A stretch of DNA of 33,916 nucleotides from Candidatus Endomicrobium neocapritermitis (GTDB lineage: Bacteria > Elusimicrobiota > Endomicrobiia > Endomicrobiales > Endomicrobiaceae). Within the stretch, counting starts at the first letter, position 1. Each line of letters starts with the position of its first letter. Below the pieces are notes generated by a model, which did no database searches, was not told the DNA's origin, and saw only the letters and a program-made list of their open reading frames with translations. The translations under genes were made by a program, and so were the position numbers. Positions 514 to 33,916 of this stretch are shown one piece after another. Location: contig WRJZ01000025.1 in assembly GCA_009778325.1 (NCBI GenBank), positions 1 through 33,916 of the forward strand. Direction: 5' to 3'.

Positions 514-584
514 AGCGGGAGACGGGAATCGAACCCGCGTGGCCAGCTTGGAAGGCTGGAGCACTACCATTGTGCTACTCCCGC
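514..584 (-). tRNA. tRNA-Gly (anticodon TCC)
   Basis: Acceptor GCGGGAG pairs with CTCCCGC, anticodon stem CCAGC/GCTGG encloses CTTCCAA (anticodon TCC), and the T arm GCGGG-TTCGATT-CCCGT is complete. The discriminator is T and CCA is not encoded. It is the second tRNA of the Tyr-Gly-Thr-tuf unit. Confidence 0.95.
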
Positions 585-587
585 ACG

Positions 588-770
588 AACTGCTCATGAT
601 GTACGCCTTCGGCGCATGATGTCGCTACGCTAATGATGTATTGCCGCTTTGCGGCAACATGCTGTAATGTGTCCTTGTCTTTAATGTGTACGAAGTACAT
701 ACATCATTTCCGAAGGATACATCATGCACGCAGTGCACATCATGTCCCAAAGGGACACATCATTGCCGTT
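588..770. repeat. Hairpin-array element E2
   Basis: A run of small hairpins with mostly three-base loops, joined by ATGATGT or ACATCAT linkers: CGCC-TTC-GGCG, TGCCGC-TTT-GCGGCA, TGTAC-GAA-GTACA, TCC-GAA-GGA, GCAC-GCA-GTGC and GTCCC-AAA-GGGAC. The right end TGCCGTT (764-770) is five bases from the 3' end of tRNA-Tyr. The first ~85 bases recur at the far end of the window (E17) with two substitutions visible by eye. No coding function seen. Confidence 0.85.
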
Positions 771-775
771 AAGAG

Positions 776-858
776 TGGGGGCGGATGGATTTGAACCACC
801 GAAGGGCAAGCCCGCCAGATTTACAGTCTGGTGCATTAGACCACTCTGCCACACCCCC
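776..858 (-). tRNA. tRNA-Tyr (anticodon GTA)
   Basis: A class II tRNA with a long variable arm (GGGCTTGCCC region). Acceptor GGGGGTG pairs with CGCCCCC, and anticodon stem CCAGA/TCTGG encloses CTGTAAA (anticodon GTA). The discriminator is A and CCA is not encoded. It is the first gene of the tRNA-tuf transcript. Confidence 0.95.
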
Positions 859-6338: not shown

Positions 6339-6351
6339 TATAACCGCCTTT

Positions 6352-6441
6352 TTAACGACAATTACGAATTACGAATAAAAGACCGGAAAAGTCTTTTGTC
6401 GTTGATTAGTAATTTGTAATTAGTAATTCGTAATTGTCTTT
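6352..6441. repeat. Intergenic palindromic element E6
   Basis: Left arm ACGACAATTACGAATTACGA pairs with right arm copies of TAATTCGTAATTGTC. The centre has AAAAGACCGGAAAAGTCTTTT, a small hairpin. The ends are AACGACA and TGTCTTT, a compensating variant of the AACGGCA/TGCCTTT ends of other copies. It belongs with E10 and E11. It sits between divergent genes and runs into the nadK promoter. Confidence 0.8.
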
Positions 6442-6463
6442 CCACCGTATTTTTATATATAAT
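6434..6463 (+). promoter_or_regulatory. Likely nadK promoter
   Basis: TTGTCT (6434-6439) and TATAAT (6458-6463) with an 18-base spacer. The start would be near 6470, with a leader of about 45 bases ending in AAGGAAG before the ATG. The -35 box lies in the right end of E6. Confidence 0.65.
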
Positions 6464-6514: not shown

Positions 6515-7336
6515 ATGAAATACAGCGCCGGCATTATATACAACAAATCCAAACCAAACGCAAAAAAACTTGCTCATGATATAGCCGCTTGGCTCAAAAG
6601 CAATAAGTGCAGGGTTTTTGTATGCGATTCGCATTCGGTAAAAGCAAAAAAAGTTGATTTTGTGCTTTCAATAGGCGGCGACGGAACTATGCTTAAAGTT
6701 GTAAGGACTTTTTCGCCTCTGGCCGTGCCGGTTAAAGGAATCAATCTCGGTTCTTTGGGTTTTTTGACGGATACTGATCCGAATGAAATATATATGCTGT
6801 TAAAAGACATTTTCACATACGGCATTAAAATTGAAAAAAGAGCATTGCTGTCGGTTGAATTCGAACAAAACGGAAAGAAAATCAAAAAAATAGCGACTAA
6901 TGACTGCGTAGTGCGTTCAACTTCGGGAAGCAAGCTTATAAACGTAGCCGTAAGCGTGGATAAAAAATCTACTACCGATTACAAGTGCGACGGAATAATT
7001 TTTGCCACGCCTACAGGTTCAACCGCGTACTCGCTTGCGGCGTCCGGCCCTATTGTAGTTCCGAATCTTTCAGTGTTTATTCTGACTCCCATATGCCCGC
7101 ATACTTTGACTCAGAGACCTATGATACTTTCGGATAAAAATGAAGTTGAACTGAAAGCAAACAACAAAAACAAAAGCGGAAATATTTTGATATCAATAGA
7201 CGGACAGGAAAATTTTTACATTCCCAATGACGGCAAAGTCAGACTTTCTCTTTATAAAAAACAATTGAAACTTATAAAAAATTGCAGCAAGTCATACTTT
7301 GAAACTCTGAAAACAAAATTGAACTGGGGAGTTTAG
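6515..7336 (+). CDS. nadK: NAD kinase
   Basis: Phosphorylates NAD+ to NADP+ in the cytoplasm. The 273-residue length is typical. The catalytic GGDG motif is in LSIGGDGTMLKVVR (about residues 52-65). NLGSLGFLTD, the NDCVV segment (ATNDCVVR), the DGIIFATPTGSTAYSLAASGP signature at ~154-174, and SIDGQENFYI near the C-terminus are all present. The start is supported by AAGGAAG upstream. It is followed after E7 by recN in the same direction, a nadK-recN neighbourhood seen in many bacteria. The stop codon TAG is followed at once by the E7 end AACGGCA. Confidence 0.95.
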   Translation: MKYSAGIIYNKSKPNAKKLAHDIAAWLKSNKCRVFVCDSHSVKAKKVDFVLSIGGDGTMLKVVRTFSPLAVPVKGINLGSLGFLTDTDPNEIYMLLKDIFTYGIKIEKRALLSVEFEQNGKKIKKIATNDCVVRSTSGSKLINVAVSVDKKSTTDYKCDGIIFATPTGSTAYSLAASGPIVVPNLSVFILTPICPHTLTQRPMILSDKNEVELKANNKNKSGNILISIDGQENFYIPNDGKVRLSLYKKQLKLIKNCSKSYFETLKTKLNWGV

Positions 7337-7469
7337 AACGGCAATTAATAATTAACAAATAATAATTAATAATTATTGTGTTTTTGCTTCGCAAAAACCT
7401 GTTAATTATGTTTCGCTTTTGCGAAACACCAAAATTATTTATTGTTAATTGTTAATTATTAATTGTAGT
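7337..7469. repeat. Intergenic palindromic element E7
   Basis: The left arm begins AACGGCAATTAATAATTAAC and pairs over about 22 bases, with two mismatches, with the right arm ending TTAATTATTAATTGTAGTT. Two hairpins lie inside: GTTTTTGC-TTC-GCAAAAAC and GTTTCGC-TTTT-GCGAAAC. It fills the whole gap between nadK and recN and ends a few bases before the recN start, so it is likely transcribed as part of the recN leader. Confidence 0.85.
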
Positions 7470-7475
7470 TGTGTT

Positions 7476-10720: not shown

Positions 10721-10878
10721 ATAGATGAATAGAAGTTTAGCAGCTCAGAAGCCCGGAGGAGCCGTGGCCGTTAAAGTCATTGCCATTGCTCAACTTCTTA
10801 TCATCCTATCATCCCATCTTCTTCCATTCTTGTCTTTGCCGAGCTGCTGAGCTGCCGAACTTCTGAGCTTCTGCCTTT
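10721..10878. repeat. Intergenic palindromic element E8
   Basis: Begins right after the guaD stop and ends with TGCCTTT (10872-10878), two bases from the stop of the opposite gene. Arms with AGTTTAGCAGCTCAGAAGC-type words pair with GAGCTGCTGAGCTGCC and ACTTCTGAGCTTCTGCC. The inner part GGAGGAGCCGTGGCCGTTAA onward is shared with E3. The word TTGTCTTTGCCG lies in the right half. Confidence 0.8.
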
Positions 10879-11126: not shown

Positions 11127-11143
11127 TTTTGTCCCCTTTTTTA

Positions 11144-11275
11144 ACAACAATTAACAAATAACAGTTAATAATTATTGTGTTTTTGCAAAGCAAAAACCTA
11201 TTATATTAATATGTTTCGCCCTGGCGAAACACCGACATTGTTCATTGTTATTTGTTAATTGTTAACTGCAGTAAT
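11144..11275. repeat. Intergenic palindromic element E9
   Basis: Left arm AACAACAATTAACAAATAAC pairs with right arm words GTTATTTGTTAATTGTTAAC. Inner hairpins are GTTTTTGC-AAA-GCAAAAAC and GTTTCGCC-CT-GGCGAAAC. It is a close relative of E7 and E15. Its right arm encodes the last residues and stop codon of the deacetylase gene at 11248. Confidence 0.85.
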
Positions 11276-13547: not shown

Positions 13548-14314
13548 TAAAGGCCTTCCGGCAGCTCGCCGGCTGCCAGCCCTCCCGTAATATTTAAATA
13601 AATCGATTCCAAATCCGACCCGCCGCTGTCTTTTTTCTGCAAATTTTCAAAAGTGTCCAAAGCGAGAATTTTTCCGTCGTTAACAATACATATTCTGTCC
13701 GCGATTTTCTGCGCTATTTCCAAAACGTGCGTGCACATAAATAAGGTCGTTCCCTGACTTGAAAGCCTTGTGAAAATATCTTTCACTATCCTTGCGCTTT
13801 TCGGGTCAAGCCCTACAAGCGGCTCGTCCAGAAACATGACTTCCGGTTTGTGAAGCAGCACTCCGGATATAACAAGCTTTTGTTTCATGCCGTGCGAAAA
13901 AGAATCGATGATTTTATCCGCCCTGTCATCGAGTGAGAACATTTCAAGAAGCTCCGGAATCATTTTTCGCTGCTGATCCATCGGCACTTTATAAATATCT
14001 CCGATAATTCTCATGTATTCGAAAGCCGTAAGATACGGATACACATAAGGCTGGTCCGGAACAAATCCTATGCGATTTTTTATTGAATCCATCTCGGTTA
14101 AAACATTCATGCCGAGAATTTCAGCCTCTCCGGAAGTCGGTTTTAAAAGCCCTGTTAAAACTTTCACGGTTGTCGTTTTTCCGGCGCCGTTAGGACCTAA
14201 AAAAGCAAAAATTTCGCCTTTTTTAACGTTAAAGCTCACATCATTTACGGCTTTAAAATCGCCGTATTTTTTAACTAAGTTTCTGACTTCTACCGCGTTA
14301 TTTATATTGTCCAT
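13547..14314 (-). CDS. ABC transporter ATP-binding protein
   Basis: 255 residues from the ATG at 14314. Walker A is GPNGAGKTT, Q-loop region GFVPDQPYVYPYLT, signature FSHGMKQK (an ABC-2-type variant of LSGGQ), Walker B VMFLDEPLVGLDP and switch His in MCTHVLE. It is the energy subunit for the permease that follows. I preferred 14314 (MDNINNAVEVRNL) over an in-frame start at 14368, because the longer version would add 18 unlikely residues inside the upstream kinase gene; 14314 overlaps that gene by 13 bases. A GGGAACGG stretch precedes it. Confidence 0.9.
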   Translation of the reverse strand: MDNINNAVEVRNLVKKYGDFKAVNDVSFNVKKGEIFAFLGPNGAGKTTTVKVLTGLLKPTSGEAEILGMNVLTEMDSIKNRIGFVPDQPYVYPYLTAFEYMRIIGDIYKVPMDQQRKMIPELLEMFSLDDRADKIIDSFSHGMKQKLVISGVLLHKPEVMFLDEPLVGLDPKSARIVKDIFTRLSSQGTTLFMCTHVLEIAQKIADRICIVNDGKILALDTFENLQKKDSGGSDLESIYLNITGGLAAGELPEGL

Positions 14315-14895
14315 ATCATCACCGTTCCCAGAAGGGTTAACAACCCCGCGTTTAATATCTGCATCCAAAAATTATCGTTTATAGGCCACGGAACAGCTTC
14401 CACAATTGTGGCGATTGCCGCTCCGGCAAGCGCGAATTTCCAGTTAAATAAAAATAAGCCGGCAATAAGGCACGCTACAAAACACGCGGCGCTTCCTTCA
14501 AGGCTTTTTCCTCCAAAAATTTTGTGTTTCCCGAATGTTTTGCCTATAAGCGCCGCAAAGGCATCCCCGAAAGCAAGATATAAAAAGCTGGCCATTACCA
14601 TATATTTATTGGGGAAAAGCAAAATCGTTATCAAAGCGCCCGAGAGCGTGCCGAGTATCCCGCTTACTTTTTTTGCTTCTTCTTCCCTGTAAAAACCTTT
14701 AAAATTTTTACAGAAAAAATCATTGCACACAGGCACTTTTAACCTTAAAAACTCAAGCGAAGCAACTGCCGCAACGGCTATTGCCAGGCCCAAAATAACA
14801 GTGCTTTTAGGAAGATACCAATACCCGAAAACATAAATCAGCAACAACAAATGAAAACCTTTTCTTTTTAATTCGTCTTTCGGAAAATTAACCAT
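14302..14895 (-). CDS. SEC59/VTE5-type CTP-dependent kinase (dolichol/phytol kinase-like)
   Basis: A 197-residue protein with about six membrane segments. The family signatures are ELKRKGFHLLLL at the N-terminus and FGDAFAALIGKTFGKHKIFG followed by GKSLEGSAACF at about 108-138. Members of this family phosphorylate lipid alcohols such as dolichol, phytol or diacylglycerol, using CTP. It sits in the inner membrane. It lies 19 bp after the M50-like gene and overlaps the ABC ATPase gene, so it belongs to the envelope operon and may make a lipid carrier phosphate. The exact substrate cannot be read from the sequence; a phosphatidate cytidylyltransferase is less likely. Confidence 0.75.
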   Translation of the reverse strand: MVNFPKDELKRKGFHLLLLIYVFGYWYLPKSTVILGLAIAVAAVASLEFLRLKVPVCNDFFCKNFKGFYREEEAKKVSGILGTLSGALITILLFPNKYMVMASFLYLAFGDAFAALIGKTFGKHKIFGGKSLEGSAACFVACLIAGLFLFNWKFALAGAAIATIVEAVPWPINDNFWMQILNAGLLTLLGTVMIWTI

Positions 14896-14914: not shown

Positions 14915-15601
14915 TTATGTCTCTTTAAAAGCAGTAACAACCTGCGTTATACCTTCATACAAAAACATATAAAAATGAACAATATTATAGTACATCTCCG
15001 TAAAAAGGCTCTTCAAATTTACTTCATCCGGAAAAACCAAAGCCATAAGCAGCGAAAAAACAATAACATTTACGGCGATTATAAGAATATAAGAAAAGAA
15101 AACCCCGTAAACTTTCAAATCCGGCTGGCCTATACCTATTATATATATTGTGAGAGCAATATGGAAAGCTATAGAAAGCCCTGCAAAAAAAAGAAAGTAC
15201 GGATACAAAGGTTTTATATCCGTAAACCACCCTAAAAACAAATATACTACTATTACCGCAAAAGTATATATCGGAAAAAAATAAGGCGCAAGGGTTATCC
15301 AAATACTGTCTTTTGTCAAAACCACATGCCCGGACTCACTTCCGACTTTGAACTTTTTAACTCTTGCTCCGCTGAGTATTCCCGCAAAAGCGTGCGTAAG
15401 TTCGTGGCCAAAAACATATGTGCGCATCGGCTTGTAAAAAGCTATCTGAAAAACAATATAAGCCAAAATACCTACCCAAAAAGGAATATGCACATTGGCG
15501 CTTTTTCCGGTAAAATCCAGGAAAGTTTTAATTAACGTATATGCCGCGGCAGCCGCAAGAGGCGTTGCCGCAAAAGCAAAAATATTTCTGATTATTTTCA
15601 T
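14915..15601 (-). CDS. M50-like membrane metalloprotease
   Basis: 228 residues with about five or six membrane segments. Zinc motif HELTH at 66-70 (in FGHELTHAFAGILSGARV), followed by KVGSESGHVVLTKDSIWITL and APYFFPIYTF, a layout typical of M50B-like integral membrane proteases. A possible third-ligand segment is GIGQPDLKVYG near 155. It would cut membrane-embedded or membrane-near substrates. It is the first gene of the five-gene minus-strand operon that continues with the kinase and ABC exporter. The ribosome site is weak. Element E10 begins sixteen bases upstream of its start codon, so its promoter lies in or beyond E10. Confidence 0.75.
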   Translation of the reverse strand: MKIIRNIFAFAATPLAAAAAYTLIKTFLDFTGKSANVHIPFWVGILAYIVFQIAFYKPMRTYVFGHELTHAFAGILSGARVKKFKVGSESGHVVLTKDSIWITLAPYFFPIYTFAVIVVYLFLGWFTDIKPLYPYFLFFAGLSIAFHIALTIYIIGIGQPDLKVYGVFFSYILIIAVNVIVFSLLMALVFPDEVNLKSLFTEMYYNIVHFYMFLYEGITQVVTAFKET

Positions 15602-15616
15602 TATCTAAACTCTTAT

Positions 15617-15805
15617 AACGGCAATTACGAATTACGAATGACGAATTACGAATCAAAGACAAAAGCTTGTGATTACGCAATGATTTTAGCTAATTAAAAA
15701 AATAAAAAAAAGCCCGGGTTAAAAACAATTACGAATTACGAATAACCTGCAAACGACTTTTTTGTCTTTAATTCGTAATTCGTCATTCGTAATTCGTAAT
15801 TGACT
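15617..15805. repeat. Intergenic palindromic element E10
   Basis: The left arm begins AACGGCAATTACGAATTACG and its first ~46 bases are identical to the left arm of E11. The right arm, TAATTCGTAATTCGTCATTC and following, is its near-perfect complement. A third partial arm starts near 15724. TTTTTTGTCTTT and CAAAGAC mark the inner junctions. It lies between divergent genes and stops at the hppA -35 box. Confidence 0.85.
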
Positions 15806-15834
15806 TTGACATAACCCGCCGGAAATCATATAAT
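15806..15834 (+). promoter_or_regulatory. hppA promoter
   Basis: Consensus TTGACA (15806-15811) and TATAAT (15829-15834) with an ideal 17-base spacer. The start is near 15841, with a leader of about 50 bases holding a small ACCC-TTGA-GGGT hairpin and AAGGAG at 15880-15885. Confidence 0.9.
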
Positions 15835-15890: not shown

Positions 15891-18299
15891 ATGCAGCGGT
15901 TATGTAAGTTTTTTTCTTTAAAGAAGTTTGCAGGTATTTTTGCGTTTCTTCTTGCGGCGGCAAGTCAGTCTTTCGCAAGCGAAGCGAATCTTGTCATACC
16001 GGATTTGTCGGCAGTAAGCTTTCTCGGCGGCGCCGTTAACGGTAAAGTTCTTTTGACGTTCGGATTTTTAATATGTATTTTCGGGCTTTGTTTCGGTATT
16101 TACCATTATTTAAATATCAAAAATCTTCCCGTTCATAAATCAATGAAAGATATTTCCGAGCTTATCTACGAAACATGTAAAACGTATCTTATAACGCAGG
16201 GTAAGTTCATGATCGGGCTTCAAATACTCCTGGCGATAATAATATTTGTTTACTTCGGGCTTTTGCAGAATTTTGCCGCAATCAAAGTTACCACGATTAT
16301 TCTGTGCAGCATTGTGGGAATCGCGGGAAGCTATACGGTAGCGTGGTTTGGAATGAGAATAAACACTTTCGCGAATTCAAGAACGGCTTTTGCCAGCCTT
16401 AAAGGAAAGCCTTTTCCGCTTTACGCTATACCGCTTCGCGCGGGTATGAGCATAGGAATGCTTTTGATAAGCATAGAACTTTTTATCATGCTTGTCATAT
16501 TGCTTTTCATACCGAGAGATTTTGCCGGAGCGTGTTTTATAGGTTTTGCAATCGGAGAATCACTTGGCGCTTCCGTACTTAGAATCGCCGGCGGAATCTT
16601 TACAAAAATCGCCGATATCGGTTCAGACCTGATGAAAATAGTTTTTAATATTAAAGAAGACGACGCAAGAAATCCGGGAGTTATAGCGGACTGCACCGGC
16701 GACAATGCCGGCGACTCGGTAGGTCCTACCGCGGACGGTTTTGAAACATACGGAGTTACGGGCGTAGCGCTTATTACTTTTGTCGTTTTAGCCGTACACG
16801 ATCCCGTGATACAGATTAAGCTTCTCGTATGGCTGTTTGCAATACGTTTGATGATGCTTATCGCAAGCGCGCTTTCTTACGCAATCAACGGATTTATCTC
16901 AAAAGGGAAGTACGAGACATCCGACAAAATGAACTTTGAAGACCCTTTGACTTCTCTGGTATGGATAACTTCAGTGGTTTCAATAGGGCTTACATTTTTA
17001 GTTTCAAGGCTAGTAATAGGCGACCTGGGAGACGGCACGCTTTGGTGGAAACTTTCGGCAATCATAAGCTGCGGCACTATTGCAGGCGCAGTTATACCTG
17101 AAATAGTAAAAGTATTCACTTCCGTAAAAAGCGCTTTCGTGCAAAACGTTGTCGCGTCTTCCAGACACGGAGGAGCTTCGCTTAATGTTCTTGCGGGATT
17201 GACAGCAGGTAATTTCAGCGCTTACTGGATGGGGCTTGCCATAATAATCCTTATGACAATAGCTTACGCCATAAGCACTCTCGGGCTTGCATCGCTTATG
17301 CTGGCGCCGGCGGTTTTTGCTTTCGGACTTGTGGCTTTCGGGTTTTTGGGAATGGGTCCGGTTACAATAGCCGTTGACTCATACGGCCCTGTTACGGATA
17401 ATGCGCAGTCGGTTTATGAACTTTCATTGATTGAAAACGCAAAAGATATAGACAAAGAAATAGAAAAAGATTTCGGCTTTAAGCCTGCTTTTGACAAGTC
17501 GAAAACACTGCTTGAAGAAAATGACGGAGCGGGCAATACGTTTAAAGCAACGGCAAAACCCGTGCTTATAGGCACGGCTGTCGTAGGCTCTACTACGATG
17601 ATATTTTCGATTATCGTCATTCTTACGGAAGGTTTAACCACGGGTCTGGGCAATCTTTCAATAGTGCACGCGCCGTTTTTGCTTGGTTTAATCGCCGGCG
17701 GAGCGGTAATTTATTGGTTTACCGGCGCTTCAAACCATGCCGTTACCAGCGGAGCGTACAAAGCCGTGGAATTTATTAAAGATAATATTAAACTTGACGG
17801 CTCTTCGGAAAAAGCTTCTACAGAGGATTCAAAAAAGGTAGTTGAAATCTGCACAAAGTACGCGCAGAAAGGAATGATAAACCTGTTCCTTGTTGTCTTC
17901 TTTCTTACTTTGGCTTTTGCTTTTATCGAGCCTTACTTTTTTATCGGATATCTTATTTCAATAGCTTTGTTCGGTCTTTTCCAGGCAATATTTATGGCAA
18001 ATGCCGGCGGAGCATGGGATAACGCGAAAAAGTATGTGGAAGTTGATTTAAAAGAAAAAGGCACGGAGCTGCATAAAGCAACGGTTGTAGGCGATACTGT
18101 AGGCGACCCGTTCAAAGATACTTCTTCCGTAGCAATGAACCCTATAATAAAATTCACGACACTGTTCGGGCTTCTTGCGCTGGAACTTGCTTTGGCGCTT
18201 ACAAACAAAGGCACGCTTAACGTTATGCTCACCACGACATTTTTTATCATAGCCTCTGTCTTTGTCGTAAAATCATTTACCGATTTGAGAAACAAGTGA
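15891..18299 (+). CDS. hppA: Membrane-bound ion-pumping pyrophosphatase, K+-independent type
   Basis: Hydrolyses pyrophosphate and pumps H+ (or Na+) across the inner membrane. 802 residues from the ATG at 15891, chosen for its AAGGAG site. The N-terminus looks like a signal sequence (FAFLLAAASQSFASEA), followed by about sixteen membrane segments. Catalytic motifs: GGIFTKIADIGSDLMKIVF, EDDARNPGVIADCTGDNAGD then SVGPTADGFETYG, and VVGDTVGDPFKDTSSVAMNP. These differ from the common DVGADLVGKVE and DNVGDNVGDCAG forms. Lys552 in GNTFKA takes the place of Ala in GNTTAA, the known mark of K+-independent enzymes, which are proton pumps. A monocistronic gene with a consensus promoter. Confidence 0.92.
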   Translation: MQRLCKFFSLKKFAGIFAFLLAAASQSFASEANLVIPDLSAVSFLGGAVNGKVLLTFGFLICIFGLCFGIYHYLNIKNLPVHKSMKDISELIYETCKTYLITQGKFMIGLQILLAIIIFVYFGLLQNFAAIKVTTIILCSIVGIAGSYTVAWFGMRINTFANSRTAFASLKGKPFPLYAIPLRAGMSIGMLLISIELFIMLVILLFIPRDFAGACFIGFAIGESLGASVLRIAGGIFTKIADIGSDLMKIVFNIKEDDARNPGVIADCTGDNAGDSVGPTADGFETYGVTGVALITFVVLAVHDPVIQIKLLVWLFAIRLMMLIASALSYAINGFISKGKYETSDKMNFEDPLTSLVWITSVVSIGLTFLVSRLVIGDLGDGTLWWKLSAIISCGTIAGAVIPEIVKVFTSVKSAFVQNVVASSRHGGASLNVLAGLTAGNFSAYWMGLAIIILMTIAYAISTLGLASLMLAPAVFAFGLVAFGFLGMGPVTIAVDSYGPVTDNAQSVYELSLIENAKDIDKEIEKDFGFKPAFDKSKTLLEENDGAGNTFKATAKPVLIGTAVVGSTTMIFSIIVILTEGLTTGLGNLSIVHAPFLLGLIAGGAVIYWFTGASNHAVTSGAYKAVEFIKDNIKLDGSSEKASTEDSKKVVEICTKYAQKGMINLFLVVFFLTLAFAFIEPYFFIGYLISIALFGLFQAIFMANAGGAWDNAKKYVEVDLKEKGTELHKATVVGDTVGDPFKDTSSVAMNPIIKFTTLFGLLALELALALTNKGTLNVMLTTTFFIIASVFVVKSFTDLRNK

Positions 18300-18300
18300 G

Positions 18301-18466
18301 AACGGCAATTACGAATTACGAATGACGAATTACGAATCAAAGACAATAAACGACTAATAACAGCAAACAGCCGATAATAATTTTAATTTATTATCGGCTG
18401 TTTTTAATTGCCTTTGTCGTTCGCCGTTGATTCGTAATTCGTCATTCGTAATTCGTAATTGCCGTT
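18301..18466. repeat. Intergenic palindromic element E11
   Basis: The most regular copy: exact inverted ends AACGGCA (18301-18307) and TGCCGTT (18460-18466), arms made of AATTACG-type words, inner CAAAGAC and CTTTGTC, and a terminator hairpin at the core. It starts one base after the hppA stop and ends three bases before the stop of the convergent autotransporter gene. Confidence 0.9.
18365..18408. terminator. Bidirectional terminator inside E11
   Basis: A perfect 16-bp stem AAACAGCCGATAATAA (18365-18380) with its complement at 18388-18403 and a seven-base loop. TTTTT follows on the plus strand. On the minus strand the stem is followed by TTTGCTG, a shorter T-run. It should end hppA well and the autotransporter mRNA less well. 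Confidence 0.85.
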
Positions 18467-18469
18467 ATA

Positions 18470-21400
18470 TTATCTTTCATAAAAATCCACATAAGTAGTA
18501 GTAAACTTATAGTTGATTCCTATATTGCCGTAAAACCCTGTCTGAGAACCGGCAAACAGCCCGTTAACGTTGGAATAAACGCTCCAGCTTGCGGAAATAT
18601 CATATAAAACGCCAAAGCCTAAAGCAGTTGAAAACAAATCGTTTTCTATGCCTGCAATGCTCAAAGGCTTGTCTGTATTTTCAAATTTTCCTTCAAACTC
18701 TCCGTATCTTCCCGCGGCAAGAAAATTAAACTGCGCTTGCGCGTACCACTTCGCCCTCATTTCGGTTCCGTTGTTTACCTGAAAACCGATATTTGTATTT
18801 ACCCTGTGATAAGAACCGCCGTAAATTGTTAAATCCGCGCTGCTGGCGGCGCCGTCTTCGGTAAAGCCTCTTTCGGTAAACTCCTGAGTAGTTACATAAG
18901 AATAATCCAGACCTAAAAAAGGCCTGAAATAAATATTGCCTTTGTAAAAATAATCATATCCCATTTCAGCGGAGGTATTTACGCTGTAACCGTTAAAATC
19001 GCCGCGCGTTTCTCTTTGTATTTCGCCGTACTCTATCTTTCTTAATGAAGTATAATTTTGCCTTCCGCCCATAAGCATAAGTTTAAGTTCAAGATTATTT
19101 TCAAAGAAAATCGCGCCGTATCCGCCAATGCTAAAGCCCGTAATATCAACCGTATCGCTGTTTTGTTTCGCGCTCGTATTAACATTTCCGATACTCAAGC
19201 CGAAAATCTGCATATCGTTTTTCATTGTGTCAAAACCGGCCTGCAAACCGGAATTTGAGGCGTCAAAATCTCCGGGCGAGTTTTTATCGCCTTTATATTT
19301 ATTGTTTGCGAGATACCCCTGAGCCCAAATATTTCTCTTTATGCTGCTGTCATCATCAATAAAATAACTTCTTCTAAGCCTTGACATAACACTGTCTTTT
19401 GAAATATTCAATGCGGGAAGAGTTATGGCATTGGCATATATATGTCCGGAAAGACTGTTAAGAGCTTTTTTCCTGTCCGCAATGTCAAGAACGTCAATAC
19501 TGTCTATAATCTTAAACAAATCGCCAAGCGCAAAGCCGTACACCTCATCCAGCGCGAGAGCGGTTTGCTTCTGGTTATCGGTCAAGCCTTCTATTGCGTT
19601 AAGCTGGTCTATGCTTAAAACAATATCCACAGACTTCCACGCCGGAGGAACTATACTGCTGCTTACATTCACTCCGTCGGAATATGTCAAATAAGATTGA
19701 ACTCTGGTCATCGTGCTTCCTTCCGCATTGGTATTGTCTATGCGAAGCGCGCCGTAGCCGGAAGTAGAATTAATTATATTGTAAGTTTGTTCGGCGGCTT
19801 CAATTCCGGCTATGCCGGCTTTTATCCATGTGCCGTTCAAGCTCGCCGTTGACGCTGAAATTTTATCCGAAAAGCCTGTGTCGGAATCTATATCAAGATA
19901 TATTTTTCCGTTTGTCGTTGAAGTTAAAACTCCGGATACTACGATATTATCGTTTATATCGCCGTTTCTCATATCAATAACCGTTAATGTTTCAGTGCTT
20001 GCGCTCGTGTTTTGGATGGTGAAATTCACGGCATTAAAAGACGAACCTGAACCCAATACCGCTGTTCCGGAAGTTATGTTCAATGTTTGAAATATAAAAT
20101 CGCCGTTTAAATACAAATTACCGGCACCGTCTTTGTTTACGATATTTCCGGCTGTTGCGGAAGAATATGTTATGCCTCCGTCAAACGTCATGGACGCTGA
20201 CGTACTTACGGTCAAATTCAGAACCGCATTTCCTCCCAAATTAACATCGTTTCTTACGCCGCTCGATATATTATTTGAAAATAATACATCTTTTGACAGC
20301 GCATAAAAATCGCTGGTGCCATCGTGTATATATACTGCTCCGCCTTCACGCGCGGCTTTATTGTAGGTAATTTCAGCGCCGTCGCTTATAGTTAATGTTT
20401 TTGAATAAAACGCTCCTCCGTCGCCATTGCCGGCGGAATTATACACGGCATTTACATAACCGCTAAAAATTATATCGTTTTGCGAAAAAAGGGCGCCGCC
20501 GGAGCCGTCTGTTGAAGCGTTTAAAGATATTGAGGCAGTTCCTGAAGAGTTGTCAAAATTTATACTTCCGCCGGAATAAATCGCTCCGCCGGACGAAGTT
20601 TCAACTTTGTTTAAGGTTATGACTGCCGAACCGGAAAATGTTACATCCGAAACGGCATATATGGCTCCGCCTGAATAAATTGCGCTGTTTTGCCGCAAAT
20701 TTATTGTCATATCTTGATTTGTAAATTCTACGGTTGATGCGGCGTATAAACCTCCGCCTCTGTGTTCCGTACTGGTGCTTCCGCCGACCATCGCAATATT
20801 TTGTTTTATTTCTGCTCCGCCGTCAAAAACAATGTCTTTTCCGGAATATATTCCGCCGCCCAAATATTGGGTAACATTCGAAGATATTATTATTACGGCG
20901 TTTTTATCATAAAAATAAACTCCGCTTGACGCGTATATACCGCCGCCATTACCGGTTCTTGCCGTATTGCTGCTTATATTGGCTTGGCCGCCTATGCTTA
21001 CAGTGCCGCTGCCTGTATAGATACCGCCGCCGTCCCATCCGGATGAATTGCTTTGAAGATTCAAGTAACTGCCGGAACTGAAAACAATATCGCCGCCGGA
21101 ATAAATTGCTCCGCCGTGACCGAGAGCGTCGACGACATAATTTCTTATAAAACTTGCCGAACCGCCAAATGTCGCCGTTCCGGACGCGACATAAACAGCT
21201 CCGCCGTAAGTGCTCGCGCTGCTGGCTTCAATTGAAAAATTCCCATTTAACGTCAATCCCGTACCGCCGACATATATGGCGCCTCCGCCTTCCGTACTCA
21301 GACCGTCATATGCGCCTCTTGTCAAAATTATATTATCTAAAGTTAAAGTATTTCCGCCGGCAACATTGAAAAATCTGTGCGAACCGCCGGATATGAGAGT

Positions 21401-22302: not shown

Positions 22303-22308
22303 AATTTT

Positions 22309-22423
22309 AAAGGCAGAGAATAGAGAACAGATAAGAGAGAATAGATAATAGCAAATAACATCGCAAAAACTATTATCTTAATGTTAACTATTCTCTATTC
22401 TCTTTTCTCTCTTAACTGCCTTT
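22309..22423. repeat. Intergenic palindromic element E13
   Basis: Exact inverted ends AAAGGCA (22309-22315) and TGCCTTT (22417-22423). Arms of GAGAATAGAGAACAG-type words pair with ATTCTCTATTCTC-type words; the inner part has AATAGCAAATAAC and AACTATTATC. The right end encodes the last residues and stop of the ferredoxin subunit, and the left end is six bases from the hycI start. Confidence 0.85.
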
Positions 22424-22924
22424 TTTAGCTTTTTTGTTTTGAGGGACAAGCTCTTCGAGTTTTACCGTAAGTTTTGAATCCGTATTTTCGGCATCATCAA
22501 TGGCATTATTTTTAGCTGTCTGCTCTTCCTGCTGCTTAATAGGCTCAACACTTTCTGTTTTATGAGCAAACTCTTCAAGCTTTATGGTAAGTTTTGATTT
22601 GTCTATCTGCGCAAGTTCAAAATTATCGGTAGTCTTCAAAGCTTTTTTCGGACATGTTAAAACACATTGCGAACAAAAAATACAGTTCGCAAGAGACAGC
22701 TCGCAACTGAACACTTTATCTTCTTCTGTTTTTTTTATTTTAATCGCGCTTGCCGGGCAGTTTCTTACGCATATGCCGCATCCTATGCATTTTGGCTGCT
22801 CAAAAGATATCATGCCGGCAATGCTTCCGTGAATCGGGCGCTTTTTATACGGATATTCCGACGTAGCCGGTTTTTTAAACAGAGAAGCTAAAGCCTCAAA
22901 AAGCATCTTTCCTAATTTTTTCAT
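22412..22924 (-). CDS. Hydrogenase 2[4Fe-4S] ferredoxin subunit (NuoI/HycF/EchF-like)
   Basis: The electron-wire subunit between ferredoxin and the small subunit. 170 residues. The two cluster motifs are CIGCGICVRNCP (Cys46, 49, 52, 56) and CIFCSQCVLTCP (Cys81, 84, 87, 91). The C-terminal 70 residues are unusual: charged, probably disordered, and carrying a duplicated motif SKLTIKLEEF (110-119) and SKLTVKLEEL (150-159). The ATG overlaps the NuoH-like stop (ATGA). The very end (KGS-stop) lies in element E13. Likely membrane-associated through the NuoH-like and NuoB-like subunits. Confidence 0.88.
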   Translation of the reverse strand: MKKLGKMLFEALASLFKKPATSEYPYKKRPIHGSIAGMISFEQPKCIGCGICVRNCPASAIKIKKTEEDKVFSCELSLANCIFCSQCVLTCPKKALKTTDNFELAQIDKSKLTIKLEEFAHKTESVEPIKQQEEQTAKNNAIDDAENTDSKLTVKLEELVPQNKKAKKGS

Positions 22925-32253: not shown

Positions 32254-32270
32254 ACAAAGGGATGCATTAG

Positions 32271-32361
32271 GAAGTTTAGAGAGCTTAGAGGTTTAGAAGC
32301 TTAGCAAAAACAAAGACAAAGCCGTTACCAAGCTTCTAAACCTCTAAGCTCTCTAAACTTC
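32271..32361. repeat. Intergenic palindromic element E16
   Basis: A perfect 32-bp inverted repeat, left arm 32271-32302 (GAAGTTTAGAGAGCTTAGAG and on) and right arm 32330-32361, with a 27-base centre containing ACAAAGACAAAGCCGTTACC. The arms repeat TTAGAG and TTAGAAG words. It lies about ten bases past the ABC-F stop and just upstream of the hydrogenase promoter. Confidence 0.9.
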
Positions 32362-32372
32362 ATCTTTTTTAT

Positions 32373-33776: not shown

Positions 33777-33831
33777 ATAAACCTCACGACAAACGCATGA
33801 AAGTTCTTGACACCTTGACAGCACAAAGGCA

Positions 33832-33916
33832 TGATGTACGCCTTCGGCGCATGATGTCGCTGCGCTAATGATGTATTGCCGCTTTGCGGCAACATGATGT
33901 AATGTGTCCTTGTCTT
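33832..33916. repeat. Hairpin-array element E17 (second copy of E2, cut by window edge)
   Basis: The last ~85 bases repeat the start of E2, with CGCC-TTC-GGCG, CGCTGCGCT and TGCCGC-TTT-GCGGCA hairpins and GTGTCCTTGTCTT at the edge. Two single-base differences from E2 are seen. It lies upstream of the ABC-F gene. Confidence 0.85.

Follow-up and report, generated by a model that had tools for sequence, protein, structure and literature searches.

The tRNA-Gly and tRNA-Tyr genes of Candidatus Endomicrobium neocapritermitis (contig WRJZ01000025.1, assembly GCA_009778325.1) are separated by a dense series of very small hairpins, which raises the question of what kind of sequence this is and why it lies between two tRNA genes. 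The window analysed is the whole contig of 33,916 nucleotides. An initial annotation, made from the letters of the window, had placed a mini-hairpin array at 585-770, and both the coordinates and the description hold. Five perfect triloop hairpins with a stem of at least 4 bp are found there, a number reached in none of 1000 dinucleotide shuffles (mean 0.9), and exact linkers occur seven times against 0.17 expected from the shuffles (maximum 3). As RNA, the array folds better than 200 of 200 shuffles (z = -6.3).

Positions 596-763 consist of eight 7-base linkers, four of the ATGATGT type and then four of the ACATCAT type, and seven mini-hairpins, of which each half contains three and the centre one of another kind. 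The linker around all hairpins, first reported as the same throughout, is indeed a constant heptamer but is inverted as a set, with ATGATGT in the first half and ACATCAT in the second, and the sequence is therefore one symmetric element rather than a simple array. The minus strand of the window is taken as the sense strand, and its 5′ end faces the 3′ end of tRNA-Tyr (Table 1). The motif at this end is common to the copies of the element and to other inverted heptamer arrays.

Table 1. Features of the window; names and motifs of the element follow the sense strand.
Feature	Positions	Strand	Remarks
Whole element	595-772	-	boundaries by comparison of copies; related segments elsewhere in the genome
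Sense 5′ end motif	764-772	-	TTAACGGCA (TAAMGRCA as consensus); the 3′ end of tRNA-Tyr is 2-4 nt away
Linker F1	757-763	-	ATGATGT
Hairpin H1	744-756	-	GTCCC-TTT-GGGAC
Linker F2	737-743	-	
Hairpin H2	726-736	-	strong covariation
Linker F3	719-725	-	
Hairpin H3	708-718	-	
Linker F4	701-707	-	
Hairpin H4	684-700	-	687-691 pairs with 695-699; strong covariation
Centre motif	667-674	-	GGACACAT, complementary to 753-760 (sense 5′ end and 5′ arm of H1)
Linker R4	659-665	-	ACAGCAT here (ATGCTGT on the plus strand), usually ACATCAT
Hairpin H5	640-658	-	
Linker R3	633-639	-	
Hairpin H6	623-632	-	short stem
Linker R2	616-622	-	
Hairpin H7	603-615	-	
Linker R1	596-602	-	
Second copy	33830-33916	-	truncated by the contig end
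tRNA-Tyr	775-858	-	just upstream of the element in transcription
tRNA-Gly	514-584	-	next gene after the element
Inverted arrays	363-504, 952-1043, 6348-6447, 7333-7474, 10729-10866		
Further inverted arrays	11142-11268, 15585-15812, 18294-18473, 22308-22424, 32264-32368		

A single strand of the element can fold as a fishbone, in which four 7-bp linker helices alternate with opposed triloop mini-hairpins. In an alignment of 20 copies from the genus, this fold, which combines the linker helices with the local hairpins, has pairing in 97.3% of its cells and 31 doubly changed pair cells, and its score is matched by none of 500 shuffles. The long rod-shaped hairpin of minimum energy has 87.2% of cells paired and 3 double changes, and was rejected because covariation favours the fishbone. 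Most of the covariation comes from H2, whose stem occurs as GCAC/GTGC, GTGC/GCAC and GCGC/GCGC, with GTAC/GTAC in a subtype, and from H4. When H1-H4 are read on the plus strand and H5-H7 on the minus strand, the loops are restricted to GAA, GCA, GTA, AAA and tetraloops of the GNRA type. Substitutions in the linkers do not keep pairing within the genome itself, so that the linker helices rest on the symmetry of the element and on a concerted linker change in the congener G003, not on independent covariation.

Compensatory changes in stems do not always require selection for a fold, since quasi-palindrome correction can yield them by itself. The element could on this ground be a passive product of replication, in which slippage makes heptamer arrays and fold-back template switching creates the inverted half and perfects the stems, with neither a trans-acting factor nor a function. 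About ten other inverted arrays, with a period of mostly 7 or 8 bases, lie in the same window and agree with such an origin. Inverted degenerate heptamers are also reported to form the P6b stem in the tRNA-Leu intron of Nostoc, where the elements inserted or deleted do not conform to the heptamer (Costa 2002, via PMC3488679). That case concerns one site within a group I intron, not copies dispersed with a fixed polarity, and no mini-hairpin between every heptamer is described for it.

Dispersal to many loci, for which passive replication leaves no account, is extensive. A genome-wide search for linker-hairpin units, proposed in the initial annotation, was made with the pattern ACATCAT-gap-ACATCAT and gave 100 matches against none in the reversed control; by our count these form 29 segments, and others are found in three congeners. 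Since 17 of the 29 lie at contig ends, where near-identical repeats are expected to lie, the real copy number is between about 21 and 29; repeat copies also explain assembly breaks in such genomes. Tandem dimers exist among the copies. In a search that covered the phylum with 341 genomes, hairpin-bearing arrays are, among the matches listed, confined to the genus, where four genomes out of five have them; the remaining pattern matches lack hairpins. The fifth genome (G004), estimated to be 100% complete, has no element, and a spacer of only about 14 nt, free of the element, separates its tRNA-Tyr gene from its tRNA-Gly gene. Several relatives have another inverted heptamer array in this spacer, after tRNA-Tyr (L075, L026, L029, L034, L042), and G004 has none. 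The subtype of G003 has the linkers ATGATAC/GTATCAT, while its H1, H3, H5 and H7 are homologous to those of the ATGATGT subtype, and in G001 and G003 an extra mini-hairpin is nested in the H7 loop between duplicated triplets. A further subtype in G000 (L056, L066, L067) has an enlarged centre with three more hairpins, which recalls the core of the heptamer arrays. The element is thus neither limited to this locus nor devoid of structure or conservation.

The copies are not placed at random with respect to genes. Among 19 copies with a known 5′ end, there are 10 in which a tRNA or tmRNA gene lies 0-4 nt from that end, two of these adjacencies being taken from tmRNA coordinates, while the opposite end is near such a gene in none of 20 copies. 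The genes at these ten ends are those for tRNA-Tyr, Met, Leu (two), Glu, Ala, Ser and Pro and the tmRNA gene, which is flanked by fishbone copies on both sides in opposite orientation (L057 2074-2819, G000:C35). The adjoining tRNA end is mostly the 3′ end. Most of the remaining copies are beside protein genes, and some begin near stop codons or just ahead of Shine-Dalgarno-like stretches. The tRNA context singled out at first is consequently meaningful, but the element itself is genome-wide and found at unrelated genes as well. Likewise, the proposal that it must be tolerated or used during tRNA processing stands as far as tolerance is concerned, with a preference for tRNA 3′ ends, and nothing shows a role in processing.

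The dispersed copies, the complete relative that has none, the tandem dimers and the polarity of the targets, taken together, are best read as signs of a non-autonomous mobile element. The sequence is probably a structured, non-coding miniature element that has moved and settled at transcript ends; we put this reading, whose mobility is inferred, at a probability of roughly 0.55. The same polarity toward tRNA 3′ ends and terminators, combined with covarying stems and loops restricted on one strand per half, would also suit an RNA with a function of its own, either a small RNA or a 3′ trailer element, transcribed, folded and kept to protect or regulate the 3′ ends of tRNAs and other transcripts. 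This is rather unlikely, given many near-identical copies beside unrelated genes and none in the complete congener. Moreover, wobble is kept mainly on the plus strand, the strand opposite tRNA transcription, where stem deviations comprise 10 G.T types against 3 A.C types, an excess that is only suggestive at these small numbers.

The linkers give further insight. At variable positions their identity is 0.97 within an array and 0.56 between arrays of one genome, a difference reached in none of 5000 permutations. Because the hairpins between the linkers differ, slippage cannot make the linkers homogeneous; that separated linkers change together, and that H1, H3, H5 and H7 stay homologous across the ATGATGT and ATGATAC subtypes, makes passive replication quite improbable. 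Eight linkers that lie apart yet change in concert ask for a factor that reads them, and a direct experiment could look for one. One reader protein per subfamily would also fit if the arrays were clustered DNA sites for a heptamer-reading regulator or nucleoid protein, as proposed for Geobacter. In Geobacter metallireducens, tandem 7-8-mers with their inverse nearby occur in many copies per genome, and tandem octamers that are paired across the two strands carry an annotation as sites of global regulators (PMC2700814). They differ in being linked to IS elements and not to tRNAs, and are described without mini-hairpins (PMC2700814). Protein sites of this kind are very improbable here, for they have no need of hairpins with covarying stems, of a polarity to tRNA 3′ ends, or of the complementarity between the 5′ end and the centre described next.

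In the centre of each element lies a stretch of 6-13 nt that is complementary to the 5′ end of that element and to the 5′ arm of its H1, even where both sequences differ between elements. The analysis used 18 manually delimited elements and excluded L497 (weak, at about 6 nt) and L477 (unclear); the complement is 8-13 nt long in 17 of the 18 and 6 nt in one. Its mean length is 10.1 nt with the element's own centre and 4.3 nt with the centres of other elements, and none of 20000 permutations reached this. For example, in L065 of the same genome the change of GTGTCC to GTATCC is paired with that of GGACAC to GGATAC, and in G003 the 5′ end and the centre have also changed together. Outside the 18, an element on a viral contig (L292) has such a complement as well, GATGTTTGCC with GGCAAACATC. 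An alternative fold, with the 5′ end paired with the centre, is thus possible. No earlier description of either the concerted linkers or this complement was found.

Relatives are also found outside the phylum. A scan of 84,980 genomes for a triple-linker pattern was filtered for hairpins in both gaps, which were present in 43 of 427 parses among the matches listed, some of the 43 being coding; most raw matches listed from the public collections were discarded as chance or coding repeats. The clear arrays among the matches listed are from Clostridia of the gut, in many cases the ruminant gut. Nine Clostridial genomes have 2 to 132 triple-linker matches each, with linkers of the form RTGAWRT, and complete elements follow the four plus four plan of the window. 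A covariance model built from the genus only (R1) finds the Clostridial elements on the expected strand with E-values from about 1e-14 upward, scores that are partly circular because the loci were chosen by their linker pattern; plain heptamer arrays from elsewhere in the order gave no match to R1. That plan and 5′-end complement recur in distant hosts, which further counts against a passive replication product.

In Clostridia, too, the elements lie at transcript ends. The T-run of a terminator ends at most 8 nt upstream in 17 of 26 positions against 82 of 2000 random positions by an automatic test, and by eye intrinsic terminators precede more than 17 of the 26; a tRNA on the same strand lies 32-43 nt upstream in 11 of 27 positions. 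A start after the terminator speaks against a kept RNA, as transcription would need read-through or a promoter of its own. The element of the viral contig mentioned above (IMGVR_UViG_3300018475_000391, 14193-14321) also stands directly behind an intrinsic terminator. A blastn search of a phage and a plasmid collection gave no match that would indicate such an origin by DNA similarity.

An Rfam scan of the window led to a known family. Gut-1 RNA (RF01706) matches in register on the minus strand at 765-696 with 22.1 bits (E 0.023), well short of the gathering score of 50 required for membership; two further elements, L051 and L064, score 29.0 and 22.6 bits. Gut-1 is made of three mini-hairpins joined by the constant heptamer GUGAAAU, in the register and strand of the sense 5′ half, and the window element likewise has three consecutive mini-hairpins with a constant 7-nt linker between them, ATGATGT in place of GTGAAAT. 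The Rfam model covers only 77 nt and includes neither the inverted half nor the pairing of the 5′ end with the centre. The one match above the threshold (L160:4775-4848, 66.9 bits) continues through one more hairpin and a centre to four inverted linkers, being the first part of a four plus four array with GTGAAAT and ATTTCAC linkers behind the terminator of tRNA-Trp; R1 does not find this true Gut-1 element at E 0.05. Intermediates score on both models and connect the window element with accepted members: L144, a Clostridial ATGATGT array, has 39.9 bits on Gut-1 and 62.6 on R1, and L115, with ATGATGT and GTGAAAT in one array, has 45 and 47 bits on Gut-1 and 36 on R1. In view of the full element at L160 and the mixed linkers at L115, Gut-1 can be read as a model of one fragment of this architecture, and the element in the window, a non-member by Rfam's rule, as a distant variant. 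Rfam types Gut-1 as "Gene; sRNA", which favours the explanation by a functional RNA; a literature search found no Gut-1 paper and no stated function. If Gut-1 belongs to a symmetric repeat that can reach dozens of copies in a genome, the proper object of study is a probable mobile element rather than an isolated sRNA, and one that would have a defined target preference and a self-complementary centre.

As a non-autonomous mobile element, the sequence would be moved in trans by some factor, which may recognise the folded single strand, the linker heptamer or both. Insertion at transcript ends would do the least harm, tRNA maturation would trim the element off, and pairing of the 5′ end with the centre would give the 5′ half an alternative fold used in recognition or copying. 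As in MITEs, short non-coding copies are dispersed and a relative with the site unoccupied exists. As terminal inverted repeats, the ends TAAMGRCA(A)TGATG and CATCATG..CCGTT are imperfect and short, and no target-site duplication is obvious at the junctions read, with few clean empty sites. Searches for the Y1 transposase and RVT_1 families revealed no transposase, integrase or other partner that could serve as the mobilising enzyme. RVT_1 (PF00078) is present in 2 of the 14 genomes searched and absent from all five genus genomes and seven of the nine Clostridial hosts, so that retrotransposition, as by a group II-type retroelement, is not supported as the general mechanism. The richest host (G345) has no Y1 transposase, and neither do G346, G347, G002 and G003; RAYT/Y1 transposition is not supported as the general mobiliser for this reason and because the RAYT-like genes of G000 are flanked by GGGGACGGAGGAATTGAC-type repeats and not by the fishbone element.

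Similar elements are known elsewhere. REP, BIME and REPIN sequences are small, dispersed, non-autonomous extragenic palindromes, often in inverted pairs, but REPs are 20-40 bp long, bear GTAG/CGTC tags and have a RAYT gene (PMC3116915, PMC3733652). The repetitive hairpin elements of sponge mitochondria are dispersed, probably mobile intergenic mini-hairpins that also occur as double or multiple units, but they are organellar and have neither heptamer linkers nor a symmetric four plus four plan (PMC2800124).

The remaining inverted arrays of the window have units such as AATTACG, TTAACAA, AGAGAAT and CAGCTCAG-like sequences; many end in TAAMGRCA and some have a core of two mini-hairpins. Many tRNA spacers of the genome are filled by inverted arrays with this end. 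The fishbone resembles a heptamer array in which each junction bears a mini-hairpin, and may be akin to them. Gut-1, the fishbone and perhaps the plain TAAMGRCA-ended arrays might even form one self-complementary class across phyla, with an unknown mobilising system, a preference for transcript 3′ ends and concerted rewriting of linkers, although we regard so broad a class as doubtful. RAYT-like Y1 transposase genes are present in G000 (L379, L381, L383) and G001 (L380, L382), several with flanking GTCAAGGGGACGGAGGAATTGAC-type inverted repeats, and L381 in addition comes after an AATTACG heptamer array, which overlaps the upstream ORF at its end. In the window, positions 1741-1920 hold TCATCCTGAACAAGCTTAGCTTGGAACTTGTTTCAGGATCT-type repeats with inverted copies, a separate repeat family.
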